DNA of 50,145 bases, taken from a virus. The position numbers and the translations under genes are program-made. Below are positions 2,590-17,071 of this stretch, one piece after another. Under the pieces are notes generated by a model that was not told where the DNA came from, made no database searches, and saw only the letters and a program-made list of their open reading frames with translations. The stretch covers positions 1 to 50,145 of the IMG/VR virus record IMGVR_UViG_3300029258_001349; one strand, written 5' to 3'. Position 1 is the stretch's first letter. Each line of letters opens with the position of its first letter.

Positions 2590-3478
2590 TTGGGCTTTTG
2601 ATATAACTGTACAGTTTCGCGTTAAGGAATCAGCAGGTGTTATTAAAATTAAACAATGTCCTTATTGTGGTAATGATAGGTCAAATCTAGAAATATCTAT
2701 ACCTAAGTGTGTCTTTCATTGCTGGGCTTGTGACGCTGGCGGATCTGTTAAAAAATTTTTAAGGGATCAAGAAATTCCCTTTGATGTTGCCGATATTAGG
2801 CCCGAAGCACCAGTAAAAAGAAAAGAAGATAGTATTTTTTTCTTACCTGATAACATGCCTTTATTACAACAACATTCTAGATACGCGATAGCTGCAGTTA
2901 ACTATTTGAAGAGTAGGGGAATGACTGAAGAGGATATTAAAGAGTGGGATATAAGGTTTGCTACCGGTAAAGACGCAGAAGCTTTAGATTATAATTATTT
3001 AGGTTACGTGCTTTTTCCTTTTTATGGTCTAAAAGGTCTTGAATACTTTCAAGCAGCTAGTTATGTAAACAAGGGATATAAATTACCCGCAACGACTAAA
3101 GATAAATTCTTACCTAAGCAGCGCGGATCTCATACTCTGGTTTTTGTCGAAGGTATTTTCGATGCTACCACTATATGGAAATATACCACTCATGATATAT
3201 TCATGATTTTTGGTAAATATTTAGGACCTTATCAGTTAGATATGCTTACTAAAGCTAATTATACTGAGGTTATAATGTGTTTAGACGGTGATGCTTATAA
3301 AGACGCAATTACTCTTGCGAACTTACTGTATTCTCGAGGTATTCGCGTTAAAATAGCTAAATTACCTGAGGATAAGGATCCAAATGATCTAAAAGAACAG
3401 GTTGTTGAGTATATTAATAGGGCATACGACGTTACTGAAAGCTATTTAAGGAGAGAACGTGCAAGGTCGCATAGATAA
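2579..3478 (+). CDS. dnaG: DNA primase, DnaG-type (zinc finger + Toprim)
   Basis: This enzyme makes RNA primers for lagging-strand synthesis. A CHC2-like zinc finger lies at the N terminus (C27-x2-C30, then H47/C48-x2-C51). A Toprim domain follows with FVEGIFDA near 190 and the acidic pair LDGDA near 236-239. I chose the ATG at 2579, which overlaps the helicase stop, over an in-frame ATG at 2546 that would add 11 residues from within dnaB. The C terminus is short, as in T4 gp61 or T7-type primases. It overlaps the next gene by 20 bases. Gene order helicase-primase-UvsW-like is consistent with one replication operon. Confidence 0.88.
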   Translation: MIPNWAFDITVQFRVKESAGVIKIKQCPYCGNDRSNLEISIPKCVFHCWACDAGGSVKKFLRDQEIPFDVADIRPEAPVKRKEDSIFFLPDNMPLLQQHSRYAIAAVNYLKSRGMTEEDIKEWDIRFATGKDAEALDYNYLGYVLFPFYGLKGLEYFQAASYVNKGYKLPATTKDKFLPKQRGSHTLVFVEGIFDATTIWKYTTHDIFMIFGKYLGPYQLDMLTKANYTEVIMCLDGDAYKDAITLANLLYSRGIRVKIAKLPEDKDPNDLKEQVVEYINRAYDVTESYLRRERARSHR

Positions 3479-6116
3479 AGGAAGTGTTTGGCTAGAAAAT
3501 TATACGCAATCTGAGATCGCCCGATTATCTGAGATTTTATCTTTTGATATACCAGGTAGAGAACATATGCCTTTATATAAACAGGGTAAATGGGATGGCA
3601 TCAAAAGATTTCTTGATTGGCGGTTAAAGAAGTTTTCCGTAGGATTATTATCTTACGTAGAAGAGAAGTTAAATCATAAAATAGAGATTCTATCTGATGA
3701 GCGCGTATTTTTAGATTTACCCTACGTACCTGTTAAGATTGATGGTAAATATGATTTTAGAGATTATCAAGAAATATCTATAAAGAAATTGTTAAAGAAT
3801 AATGGCGGTGCAGTCGAGTTAGCAACTAATGCAGGAAAGACGGCAGGTATAGCTTCTGTCGCAGCTTCTTTTGCTAAAATAGGAAAGACAACTGTTATTT
3901 TAGAACGCACGGTTAATTTATTAACTCAAGTAAAAGCCGCAGTTGAATCATGTTTGGGATATTCAATAGGGCAGATAACACGAAAGAAAAAAGAATATAA
4001 TTATGATTGTATAATTATTATGGTTCCACTTGTTACACGTATACTGGATAGAGTCGCTAAAGATGAGGGTTCTGACGAGGATTATGAGATATTTGATATA
4101 CTTTCTAATACTGACGCTTTTCTCGTTGATGAATGTGTTGCAGGGAGCTCACTTATCCAAACAGAAAAAGGTACTATACAGATAAAAGATGTGCCTGCTA
4201 TTAAACCTTTATTTATATTATCTTATGATGGTTATCAGTCAACATACAAGCGTATAAGACGTTTTTGGTCTAAAGGCTTAAAAGAGACTTTACAAGTTAC
4301 ATTTTCATCAGGAGAAAAACTTGTATGTACGCCAGAACATTTGATTTATACAGAGGAGCACGGATGGGTAGAAGCGGGCAAGTTACAAAAGAATCAGACA
4401 TGCTTTACTGGGAAAAGAAGTTTCAAGAGTATAATGGGTCAGTCAAAAAATGCGCTTGTGGTTGTGGTAAGGAAATACCTCGTAAACAGTATATGTCTGC
4501 CGAAAATTTTAAAAGATATTATACTGCTAAAGCAGATTCCCAGAAATATATCAATAAGCATGATAAAAGACCTAAAAATTGGGCTCTTATTCTTACACCT
4601 AGGGAAGAACACTGTATTCTCGGTACATGCCTTGGCGACGGCCTTTTACGTATACCTAATCCAACCTCTAAGAATCCACATCTTTGCTGGAGTCATAGTA
4701 CCGCACAATTATCTTGGGGTAGATATAAAAAAGACGTACTTTCTAGATTACTTATTCATGAGTACGGCGCGCCAAATCAAGGTTATACAAAAGGGCGCAC
4801 GTATATTCATACGTTTAGGACACGCTGTTTACCGGCACTTAAACCTTTATATGACAAAATGTATAAAAACAATAAAAAACAGGTTACACTGTCTTGGCTT
4901 AAAAATCTTAAAGACGAAAGTTTTGCTTGGTGGTTTTGTGACGACGGATCTTATGATAAAAAAGGAAAGATTATTCACTTACATACAGAGGGTCTTACGC
5001 TGGAAGAAAATATATTATGTAAAGAATTTCTTTCTAAAGTTTTCGGACGCGTTTCACTGGTTACAGCGAAAAATAATCAAAATCGTATATATACACATAT
5101 TAGATTTCTACGTAGCTCAACTGACATGTTTTTTGACAAAATTTTACCCTTTGTACCAAAAGACATGTACTACAAAAGTCCTAGACATTCAGAAGTATAA
5201 ATCTGTGGATGTTTATGATTTAGAAGTAGAGGATACGCATTGTTTTTTTGCTAATAATATTTTAGTACATAATTGCCATCACGCACAAGCCGCATCGGAT
5301 CAAGCTATTTTAAATATGAATAGACAAGCTTTACGCTTTGGTTTTTCTGGCAGTTTACCTAAACCTGGTACAATAGCGGATTTGAATATGAGAGAAATAT
5401 TAGGAGAAACTCTGCATAAAGTATCAAATAAAGAATTAATTGATAGAGGTATCAGCGCAAAACCTACAATACACTTTATTGCTTATGAGACATCTTTAGG
5501 CAGTAAATTAGATGCATACAAACAGGCTATTCGAAATGATTGTTTTAAAATGCAATTTCAGGGCTATGATCATACAGGTAAAGAAATATTGAAAAATGTC
5601 TTTAGCGTACCTACTTATACGAATAAGGTAAAAGAATTTGTGATGAATTATGCTATAAAACATAATCCTGCCTTTACTTCTATAATTAAGCTCTTAGTAG
5701 ATGTACATGTAGCAGTAGATCAGTCTACCGTAATTATAGTAGACTGGAAAGCTTTTGGAGCAGACTTAGCAGAAACTATAGATGCACCTTTACTATACAG
5801 TAAAACGAAAAACAGAGAAGAACTTATAGAAGATTTTTCTTCAGGAAAAATAAAGAAATTAGTAACGACTAGTATTTTAGATGAAGGTATGTCTATTAAT
5901 AGAATTAAAGTATTAATCTTAGCTACAGCAGGTTCTTCTAGACGACAATTTTTACAACGTGTTGGTCGCGCCTTACGTGTTAAAAAAGATGGTGATAATA
6001 CAGCAATTATTTATGATTTCTGGCGTTTAGGTCATAAGTATTTATTAGAACCAAGTAAGAAAAGACTAGCTTTATGGAAAGAAGAAGGCTTTGATGTGGA
6101 GATGAAAACAGTTTAG
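3459..6116 (+). CDS. uvsW: UvsW-like SF2 DNA helicase interrupted by an intein
   Basis: The GTG start has a strong Shine-Dalgarno (AAGGAGAG). The 885-residue precursor holds a helicase of about 505 residues split by a 380-residue intein (residues 226-605). The helicase has an N-terminal UvsW-type domain, motif I ATNAGKT (122-128), and motif VI QRVGRALR near 833. The DEAD/H motif II is split exactly: VDE ends the N-extein and CHH begins the C-extein, so splicing restores VDECHH. UvsW-family helicases reverse forks and unwind branched or R-loop structures. Without splicing the ATPase cannot function. Confidence is high for the helicase and for the intein borders. The exact substrate is inferred from the T4 homologue. 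Confidence 0.9.
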   Translation: MQGRIDKGSVWLENYTQSEIARLSEILSFDIPGREHMPLYKQGKWDGIKRFLDWRLKKFSVGLLSYVEEKLNHKIEILSDERVFLDLPYVPVKIDGKYDFRDYQEISIKKLLKNNGGAVELATNAGKTAGIASVAASFAKIGKTTVILERTVNLLTQVKAAVESCLGYSIGQITRKKKEYNYDCIIIMVPLVTRILDRVAKDEGSDEDYEIFDILSNTDAFLVDECVAGSSLIQTEKGTIQIKDVPAIKPLFILSYDGYQSTYKRIRRFWSKGLKETLQVTFSSGEKLVCTPEHLIYTEEHGWVEAGKLQKNQTCFTGKRSFKSIMGQSKNALVVVVRKYLVNSICLPKILKDIILLKQIPRNISISMIKDLKIGLLFLHLGKNTVFSVHALATAFYVYLIQPLRIHIFAGVIVPHNYLGVDIKKTYFLDYLFMSTARQIKVIQKGARIFIRLGHAVYRHLNLYMTKCIKTIKNRLHCLGLKILKTKVLLGGFVTTDLMIKKERLFTYIQRVLRWKKIYYVKNFFLKFSDAFHWLQRKIIKIVYIHILDFYVAQLTCFLTKFYPLYQKTCTTKVLDIQKYKSVDVYDLEVEDTHCFFANNILVHNCHHAQAASDQAILNMNRQALRFGFSGSLPKPGTIADLNMREILGETLHKVSNKELIDRGISAKPTIHFIAYETSLGSKLDAYKQAIRNDCFKMQFQGYDHTGKEILKNVFSVPTYTNKVKEFVMNYAIKHNPAFTSIIKLLVDVHVAVDQSTVIIVDWKAFGADLAETIDAPLLYSKTKNREELIEDFSSGKIKKLVTTSILDEGMSINRIKVLILATAGSSRRQFLQRVGRALRVKKDGDNTAIIYDFWRLGHKYLLEPSKKRLALWKEEGFDVEMKTV
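4134..5273 (+). mobile_element. intein in helicase motif II
   Basis: The borders are set by Cys1 (codon 4134-4136), a block B with T-P-E-H near 4330-4341, a block F-like VYDLEVEDTH and the C-terminal VHN followed by Cys+1 (5274). The splicing halves are about 90 residues at the start and 35 residues at the end, both in the helicase frame. The middle, about 4395-5170, reads in that frame as a stop-free but featureless hydrophobic and basic stretch. In another frame the same bases encode a LAGLIDADG endonuclease. Inteins normally carry the endonuclease in the same frame, so this arrangement is unusual. The insertion site, a nearly invariant ATPase motif, is typical of inteins. Confidence 0.92.
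4364..5200 (+). CDS. LAGLIDADG homing endonuclease nested out of frame inside the intein
   Basis: This gene lies wholly inside the helicase intein but in a different frame. The ATG at 4364 has AGAGGAG at 4352-4358, five bases upstream, a better site than the in-frame ATGs at 4325 and 4400. The 278-residue product has a small zinc-type motif KCACGCGKEIP near residue 30. It has a first LAGLIDADG helix LGTCLGDG (catalytic Asp near 92) and a second WWFCDDGS (Asp near 193-194), as in LAGLIDADG_2-type enzymes. These make a double-strand break at the empty insertion site to copy the element. Two acidic helices and intact spacing suggest activity. Independent translation from an internal start is inferred. 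Confidence 0.85.
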   Translation: MGRSGQVTKESDMLYWEKKFQEYNGSVKKCACGCGKEIPRKQYMSAENFKRYYTAKADSQKYINKHDKRPKNWALILTPREEHCILGTCLGDGLLRIPNPTSKNPHLCWSHSTAQLSWGRYKKDVLSRLLIHEYGAPNQGYTKGRTYIHTFRTRCLPALKPLYDKMYKNNKKQVTLSWLKNLKDESFAWWFCDDGSYDKKGKIIHLHTEGLTLEENILCKEFLSKVFGRVSLVTAKNNQNRIYTHIRFLRSSTDMFFDKILPFVPKDMYYKSPRHSEV

Positions 6117-6127
6117 GAGGCTATACA

Positions 6128-6562
6128 ATGAGGAAGTGGTTAATAAGAGAGTGGGTAAAATTTTTCTTGACTTATCTTGCTCTAGTTGTAGGTATTGTAG
6201 GCATAGGTTTAGGTTTTAATTTTGTTTTAACGCAGAAACCTTCTGTTAATACGAGTGTGGATAAAGCAATAAACAGCGCTGATTGGTTTGAACAACAATA
6301 TGGACAATATCTGCTTGTAAACAGTAAAGTAGAAAAAGCGCAGAGAGCAGCTAAGGCTTTTAAGAGTGAATTAGCTTTACGAAGGATTTGGCGTCCAGAA
6401 GATACAACTAAGTATTTACATTTAACAAAGGTTTTATATAATTTAGCTTACCAAAAAGAACTACTCGTAGCTACTTACAATGCTCGTTCGGGTATGATAG
6501 CAAAAGAGTTATTTAAGTCTAAAGCAGCACCTTATCGATTACCTTTAAGCGAGGATAATTAA
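6128..6562 (+). CDS. hypothetical membrane-anchored protein
   Basis: This 144-residue protein is unknown. It has one strong N-terminal membrane segment (about residues 13-35, rich in Leu, Val, Gly and Ile) followed by a basic and hydrophilic helical domain. The charge pattern (RKWLIREWVK before the segment) suggests N-in, C-out topology. The start has a good Shine-Dalgarno (AGGAGG, 6116-6121). It sits just downstream of the helicase. It could be an inner-membrane phage protein of unknown purpose. There is no cleavage site of the lipoprotein type. Confidence 0.65.
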   Translation: MRKWLIREWVKFFLTYLALVVGIVGIGLGFNFVLTQKPSVNTSVDKAINSADWFEQQYGQYLLVNSKVEKAQRAAKAFKSELALRRIWRPEDTTKYLHLTKVLYNLAYQKELLVATYNARSGMIAKELFKSKAAPYRLPLSEDN

Positions 6563-15922: not shown

Positions 15923-17071
15923 ATGGCAATTAATCAAAAGAAAGCAGCAGATAAAGCAGCTAATCCTGGCGGCGGCTTTTCTAAGCCCCTTAAACCTAAT
16001 GAATTTAGGCCTCAAGCAAACAAATCTTACATACTACGTATTTTACCTGCTAATATCGATGAGTACGAAGCGGATGAAGCGGATGATTTTGCTTACTTAT
16101 TTAAAGATCACGGTTCATACATTAAGAGTAATGGAGAAGCTTTATATGATATTCCTTGCCCGAAGATGTTTGATCCTAGAGCAGAATGCCCTCTTTGCAA
16201 AGAGAGTTGGGAATTACATAATAGTCCTCATCCTGAAGATAAGAAAATAGCTAAGGATTTATATAATCCGCCAAGAATGTATTTAAATATTTTAGATTTA
16301 TCCGATCAAGAATCCGTAGCTAAAGGTGTACAATGGTGGAGCGCCCCTAAAAAAGCAATTTATGATAAGATTAAAGAATTACTTTTAAATCCTCAGTGGG
16401 TTATTAATGATAAGGATATTCTCGATCTTAAAGAAGGACGCAATTTTACTATAAAGATGATACCAGGTAAAGAATCATCCACAGGCTATGCCCAATATTC
16501 TATACAGCCGGCACCTAATGCTTATGATATAACGAGCTTTCTTGTAGGTGATTGGAGAGAGCGTATTAATAGTTTAGAAACTAAAAGACCTAGCATTACA
16601 GTAAAAGAAGTAACTGATATGCTTACATGTGAAGCAACTGCGACTACGCCACCACAAGTAAATGTACCAGCAATGCCTTCGAGTAACGCGACTACGCCCG
16701 GACTTCCTCAAGCTGCTGCAACTACACCGAATCTTCCTAATAATAATTCTGTTGCTCAAGAACTTCCTGGGAATAGCCCGACTACACCAAACCTACCTGG
16801 CGCTAACTCTATTACTCCAGAACTTCCTCAAGCTGCTGCGACTACGCCGACTTTACCAGAAGAAAATACTATACCGCCAGCTTTACCTACTGACACGCCT
16901 CCAGCATCACCCACGAATAACGCTGCCCAAGAAGCTTCTGTTGATGTTGAAAATAAACCTGAGTGTTTTGGTAAATATGTTCCGCGAGCAGAGAATTGTA
17001 AAAAATGTCAAAAGGAGAATCCTTCAGCGCACAAAGCATGTTGCGAAATATTCATGAATGAAGGTATGTAA
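15923..17071 (+). CDS. single-stranded DNA-binding protein, T4 gp32-like, with repeat linker and C-terminal zinc motif
   Basis: The first 230 or so residues resemble T4 gp32. A zinc site of H63, C79, C89 and C92 shows the C-x9-C-x2-C spacing of gp32, and the N terminus is basic. A Pro/Thr/Asn-rich linker of about 110 residues follows, made of imperfect units such as TTPNLP and LPQAAATTP. The protein ends in a second cysteine module (C-F-G-K ... C-x2-C ... C-C). gp32 instead ends in a simple acidic tail that recruits partners, so the tail here is unusual. SSB coats single strands for the polymerase and UvsX. The Shine-Dalgarno AAGGAG is near 15909-15914. Confidence 0.82.
   Translation: MAINQKKAADKAANPGGGFSKPLKPNEFRPQANKSYILRILPANIDEYEADEADDFAYLFKDHGSYIKSNGEALYDIPCPKMFDPRAECPLCKESWELHNSPHPEDKKIAKDLYNPPRMYLNILDLSDQESVAKGVQWWSAPKKAIYDKIKELLLNPQWVINDKDILDLKEGRNFTIKMIPGKESSTGYAQYSIQPAPNAYDITSFLVGDWRERINSLETKRPSITVKEVTDMLTCEATATTPPQVNVPAMPSSNATTPGLPQAAATTPNLPNNNSVAQELPGNSPTTPNLPGANSITPELPQAAATTPTLPEENTIPPALPTDTPPASPTNNAAQEASVDVENKPECFGKYVPRAENCKKCQKENPSAHKACCEIFMNEGM

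Follow-up and report, generated by a model that had tools for sequence, protein, structure and literature searches.

Self-splicing and homing are joined by two familiar routes, in which the endonuclease is either an in-frame domain of an intein, as in bifunctional inteins of the PI-SceI type, or the product of an open reading frame (ORF) within a group I intron, as with I-SceI and I-WcaI. Fractured genes or split inteins whose two halves flank a free-standing endonuclease were reportedly described by Dassa et al. in 2009. Overprinting of an endonuclease gene on a host reading frame is known from the ShiLan domain of mycobacteriophage DNA methylases, where the out-of-frame gene is of the HNH type, no intein or intron splicing domain is present, and the insert is proposed to stay in the protein (PMC11855218, Genes 2025); this element is limited to one host family, and no Shine-Dalgarno sequence was detected for it (PMC11855218). 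For the cyanobacterial DnaX inteins, published accounts mention only a putative in-frame endonuclease domain (PMC3443213, PMC3620165); Ssp DnaX inteins splice in Escherichia coli (PMC3620165), and they and mini-inteins also splice after removal of the “putative endonuclease domain” (PMC3620165, PMC3443213). The present analysis concerns a window of 50,145 nucleotides of viral DNA (IMG/VR record IMGVR_UViG_3300029258_001349, positions 1 to 50,145), in which a UvsW-like helicase gene contains an intein, and the intein contains a LAGLIDADG homing endonuclease (HEN) gene in a different frame. The locus is very probably a mobile element of two parts, in which an I-SceI-type HEN gene is overprinted in the -1 frame on a splicing intein resembling class 1, and which operates by the mechanism proposed below. 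Searches of the open-licence literature turned up no account of an endonuclease read out of frame within an intein.

The host gene, which like the intein and the HEN gene lies on the plus strand, runs as one unbroken frame of 885 amino acids from a GTG start (3459-6116) and encodes a superfamily 2 (SF2) DNA helicase (Pfam ResIII, Helicase_C and UvsW_N) whose motif II is interrupted by the intein (4134-5273). The HEN gene occupies 4364-5200 (278 amino acids), with its probable start at ATG 4364 and an alternative one at ATG 4325; the ORF as a whole spans 4325-5200, and its offset to the helicase, (4325-3459) mod 3, is 2, i.e., the -1 frame. In agreement with the first-pass annotation, which had given the coordinates of the intein and of the endonuclease and placed the splicing blocks and the LAGLIDADG motifs in different frames, the long frame matches Pfam Intein_splicing (1e-14) together with Helicase_C and ResIII, and the nested frame matches LAGLIDADG_2 (1e-21, 78 bits against a cut-off of 25). 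The 837 bases of overlap contain no stop in the intein frame and 36 in the third frame. The further claim that a random frame of this length should contain many stops was confirmed by synonymous recoding of the HEN, in which 3,000 shuffles gave 8.3±1.8 intein-frame stops and never fewer than 2, and chance openness of the window's intein frame was therefore rejected. For GC-rich L051, in contrast, openness may be due to chance (P0 = 0.32). The 131-codon ORF that had served as a comparison is indeed present at 16662-17057, nested in an SSB-like gene (15923-17071), and is probably a chance occurrence.

The anatomy of the intein frame is that of a complete splicing element. The N-extein (3459-4133) ends in LVDE and the C-extein (5274-6113) begins with CHHA, so that the intein of 380 residues sits between DE and CHH of motif II. 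The nearest intein-free relative found (L190; 48% identity to the joined exteins) reads LVDE|VHHA across the empty site, and the boundaries are therefore exact. The N-terminal splicing domain, with blocks A and B (4134-4409), matches its hidden Markov model (HMM) at 98.8 bits, and the C-terminal domain, with blocks F and G and the terminal ILVHN (5166-5273), does so at 60.9 bits. All class-1 residues are found in this copy, namely C1, the block B TxxH motif (TPEH, 4329-4340, with T66 and H69 invariant), the block F His, the terminal HN, and Cys+1. AlphaFold2 predicted a Hint domain formed from the two ends of the intein, with a predicted local distance difference test (pLDDT) score of about 95 for residues 1-92 and of 91-97 for residues 351-380, and a structureless loop of about 250 residues between them. 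This loop corresponds to the stop-free linker of about 248 residues that is overprinted on the endonuclease (4419-5162); within residues 96-343 the pLDDT is <50 over 96-229 and 262-343. Foldseek searches with the model matched the Mtu RecA and Spl DnaX mini-inteins, the latter (PDB 7cfv) also matching the window intein at 8e-11. A reading of the locus as a group I intron was rejected after an Rfam scan of window positions 3400-6200 gave no match at E<=1.

The nested protein has the features of a complete endonuclease. A CACGCG motif (4451-4468) marks its N-terminal module, and it carries two LAGLIDADG motifs: LGTCLGDG, with an invariant Gly-Asp pair (G91 and D92, 4634-4639), and AWWFCDDGS (4925-4951), with invariant D193, D194 and G195. 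The protein is full length and both catalytic acidic motifs are intact. The profile of its family (A2) matches I-WcaI (1.5e-29) and I-SceI (7e-26), and the structure model (pLDDT 89) adopts the I-SceI fold, with I-SceI and I-WcaI as its top structural neighbours.

Profile searches of phage records, of IMG/VR and of GTDB genomes supplied the relatives. Profiles were needed, as the single HEN protein, used directly as a query against viral contigs, gave no match. A nucleotide search of phages returned one short match only. The census used HMMs of the two intein halves, and its counts, which take in near-duplicate contigs, are seed-dependent and hold among the matches listed (80 loci); they are not frequencies. 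Among these matches, class A (HEN at -1) comprises 43 loci and class B (HEN at +1) comprises 13, none of which has a stop in the intein frame; 20 are in-frame inteins, three have a closed host frame, and two have intein halves in different frames. Class A hosts comprise phage SF2 helicases, including that of the isolated Xanthomonas phage FoX3 (MT161383), and dnaX of about 40 cyanobacteria. FoX3 represents two further class A records, absent from the 43 because the N-half model missed them; its deposited annotation shows a single helicase gene at this place, without an endonuclease, and in Pectobacterium phages, whose host frame is broken, the endonuclease is annotated. By Pfam, class B elements sit in genes for the large subunit of terminase, for a DEAD-box helicase of Ski2-like type and for helicases resembling UvrD, the label “Ski2-like” being our own reading of L028, L031 and L039.

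The first-pass annotation knew of no such general class; the suspicion that there is one is borne out by FoX3, the roughly 40 cyanobacterial genomes and many viral contigs. It had also named a sequence error as a possible refutation, in which case an assembly or sequencing frameshift would hide an intein endonuclease of the usual in-frame kind. In one contig, a pair of errors that compensate each other might yield the layout, and about 20 of the census relatives are in frame; nevertheless, the same stop-free, out-of-frame layout is found in the FoX3 isolate, in finished cyanobacterial chromosomes (e.g., L098) and in many independent viral contigs, and the codon-position pattern of the dnaX relatives inverts exactly across the overlap. 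Sequence error is accordingly an exceedingly improbable explanation. In a quick tree, class A (to which the window belongs) forms, along with L003, L072 and L011, one side of a branch (95 in the Shimodaira-Hasegawa-like approximate likelihood ratio test, SH-aLRT), and class B is scattered. Approximately unbiased (AU) tests rejected neither class B as one clade (p 0.54) nor classes A and B together as one clade (p 0.70), and the idea that the arrangement originated independently several times was given up because these tests allow a single clade in both cases.

Several individual loci extend this picture. In the UvsW-like helicase of Bacillus phage SIOphi (KC699836, 908-3787), the DE|CHH site is likewise occupied by an intein, which stays in a single frame and has an in-frame insert bearing an ADG-type motif. 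A terminase ORF at 1928-5470 of L012 seems to carry two inteins, the second with an out-of-frame class B endonuclease. In two other class B terminase inserts, L044 and L045, the N-intein half is weak and possibly degenerate, and the HENs have long C-terminal extensions, hence open overlaps of >430 codons.

The constraints acting on the two frames were examined in 39 dnaX inteins (741 pairs), none of which has a stop in the intein frame. Outside the overlap, variability of the intein codons peaks at the third position (0.51 and 0.48); inside it, the second position is the most variable (0.42), followed by the third (0.23) and the first (0.17). The second intein position within the overlap is the third position of the HEN codon, so that the pattern inverts exactly. 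Mean pairwise identity is 0.70 for the HEN and 0.49 for the linker encoded by the same bases, with the HEN higher in 740 of the 741 pairs, and class B pairs show the same pattern. Because substitutions concentrate at HEN third positions, selection in the dnaX relatives maintains the HEN as a protein and the intein linker merely as a stop-free frame. The original suggestion of selection on both frames is thus supported in a modified, unequal form, in which a linker conserved at 49%, against 70% for the HEN, nonetheless stays open. A codon-neighbour comparison, which restates the absence of stops and shows how openness is achieved, found that class A lacks NTA followed by A or G and lacks NTG, even as Met, followed by A. 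In class B, codons that precede AA, AG or GA never end in T, whereas 323 of them end in C. All these stop-forming neighbours are in free use in the unlinked relatives that served as controls.

Homing endonucleases commonly degenerate, and the nested gene might be a frozen relic, a dead endonuclease whose open host frame persists by inertia. Several dnaX copies are broken, with about six HENs truncated (L089, L104, L106, L112, L121 and L122), and the decayed copies seen carry stops or frame-keeping deletions. The window HEN, however, is full length, retains its catalytic Asp residues and has a confidently predicted fold; the dnaX HEN frame is under purifying selection, and stops would have arisen in an unconstrained frame. 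A relic is thus quite unlikely. Natural in-frame derivatives lack the overlap, including DnaX inteins of 148 amino acids (L188 and L189, relatives of L090) and further shortened forms of 162 (L181), 144 (L182) and 229 (L180) amino acids. The cyanobacterial mini-inteins of 144-162 amino acids (L188, L189, L181 and L182) stand beside relatives with the 430-amino-acid form, and to judge from these natural examples the overprinted loop is evidently dispensable.

These observations suggest a mechanism in which two proteins would be made from one message. Translation from GTG 3459 would yield a helicase-intein precursor, from which the Hint halves (4134-4409 and 5166-5273) would excise the intein, with the overprinted stretch serving as a mere loop; this step is predicted from the anatomy and because relatives in the family splice. 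Ribosomes starting anew at ATG 4364, which has its own Shine-Dalgarno sequence inside block B, would produce the separate endonuclease. By analogy with its family, the HEN would cleave the DE|CHH codons of helicase alleles that lack the intein, and the whole intein would be copied in during repair. If the pattern of the dnaX relatives applies, selection would keep the HEN as a protein and the intein frame only free of stops. In this way the fate of the parasite would be tied to that of an essential gene: any indel whose length is not divisible by 3 would break the host protein too, and decay would proceed only through substitution or frame-keeping deletions.

The means by which endonuclease translation begins is best read as internal initiation, a preference based on retention of the ATG, the proximity of upstream HEN-frame stops and the absence of a conserved slippery heptamer. 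In class A the HEN start lies within the conserved Gly-Trp codons of block B (GGA TGG at 4362-4367 in the window), and GGN TGG always contains NTG. Among the dnaX inteins, 38/39 have GGA TGG and 1/39 has GCA TGG, a Gly-to-Ala change, so that the ATG is retained in 39/39; at other conserved dnaX Gly codons, GGA is used in only 72/152. L180, whose HEN is shortened, has GGG TGG and thus GTG in place of ATG. In the window, ATG 4364 is preceded at 5 nucleotides by a Shine-Dalgarno sequence (GAGGAG, 4353-4358; duplex energy -8.3 kcal/mol), which places it among the top 2.8% when every ATG of the window is ranked.

Some points weigh against the proposed scheme. The window consists of just one metagenomic contig, and the host frame contains stops in a few relatives of class A (L003, L005 and L072). 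As to the mode of initiation, the second ATG at 4325 has a comparable Shine-Dalgarno sequence, the Shine-Dalgarno sequences preceding the dnaX ATG are weak (median -3.9 kcal/mol), and a -1 slippery heptamer, A AAA AAT, is present in phase at 4445. The last of these, along with T TTA AAA at 4508, also in slipping phase, and the -1 register of the HEN itself, would fit production of the endonuclease as a fusion through -1 ribosomal frameshifting from the helicase-intein frame, without internal initiation. This alternative is nevertheless unlikely: the dnaX family contains no conserved heptamer near the HEN start, HEN-frame stops usually lie 1-12 codons before the conserved ATG, the start codon survives even the Gly-to-Ala change and is replaced by GTG in the copy with a shortened HEN, ATG 4364 has a good Shine-Dalgarno sequence, and the +1 register of class B would require another signal.

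The class A relatives with closed host frames (L003, OP748251.2, 1857-4967; L005; L072) are Pectobacterium phages Abuela, Amona and their kin, and one viral contig. They have the intein at the same site and an out-of-frame HEN, but the helicase frame is closed by stops, and the C-half is annotated as a gene of its own containing the intein C-terminus; this form has the look of a split intein that descends from the overprinted type. Relatives with stops in the helicase frame had been named at the outset as evidence that would count against the proposal, and they exist only in this group, in which the host gene is in two halves. A comparable state in the window, with the helicase made as two trans-splicing halves and the HEN between them, has these phages as its precedent, with C-halves annotated with their own starts, but is very unlikely for a helicase frame that is unbroken over 885 codons and selected to stay so. 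Other rearrangements were seen elsewhere. In a polymerase-like gene of a 462-kb phage (L001, LR756500.1), an N-intein, a different endonuclease-like ORF and a C-intein occupy three separate frames, which looks like a fractured split intein; its C-intein has 82% DNA identity to window positions 5209-5273. In L011 and L035, intein halves in two frames surround a HEN that is in phase with the C-half only, and these may be further split types. As for the setting of the overprinted intein, window positions 1168-41868 form a tailed-phage replication module, with DnaB-like helicase, primase, UvsW, exonuclease, DNA polymerase, SSB, UvsX, an SbcCD-like fusion and an NAD-dependent DNA ligase.

Taken together, overprinted out-of-frame LAGLIDADG inteins probably constitute a widespread and previously unrecognised class that uses two registers (-1 or +1), builds its -1 start codon from Gly-Trp (GGN TGG) and includes the cyanobacterial DnaX inteins, whose centre earlier work took for an endonuclease domain in frame with the intein; being locked to a host frame that is essential would prolong the life of the HEN, since decay by frameshift would be lethal. 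A fully overlapping gene within an intein represents a third route to joining self-splicing and homing, beside the in-frame domain and the intron ORF. Its long same-strand overlap, with dozens of natural replicates in bacteria and phages, makes selection on overlapping frames directly testable, as well as the notion that entanglement shields a selfish gene from decay. Annotation of inteins in one frame only misses such endonucleases, including those of the DnaX intein family used for protein engineering.

The novelty of the locus lies in known parts assembled into a new, recurrent gene architecture. With PI-SceI-type bifunctional inteins it shares the Hint domain, the position of the endonuclease between blocks B and F, and, as predicted, homing into conserved motifs; in those inteins the endonuclease is an in-frame domain of the spliced-out protein, whereas in the window it lies at an offset of 2 from the splicing blocks, as a predicted separate protein whose gene leaves a structureless loop in the intein. 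I-SceI and I-WcaI, LAGLIDADG_2 proteins of group I introns, resemble the window HEN in sequence and fold, but are intron ORFs, while the window HEN resides inside an intein and carries a further module, CxCGCG, at its N-terminus. Fractured genes likewise encode the endonuclease as a separate protein between intein halves, with the difference that the host frame is broken there and is kept open through the HEN gene here. The dnaX loci belong to the same family as the known cyanobacterial DnaX inteins, Ssp DnaX and Spl DnaX (L105 against 7cfv, 9e-38), although the endonuclease is found in another frame than the published view supposes. In the ShiLan element, too, a homing-type endonuclease gene occupies a second frame of an insertion whose host frame has no stops; it differs in having an HNH endonuclease and no splicing domain, where the type described here has a LAGLIDADG endonuclease within a real splicing intein and occurs in several host genes.
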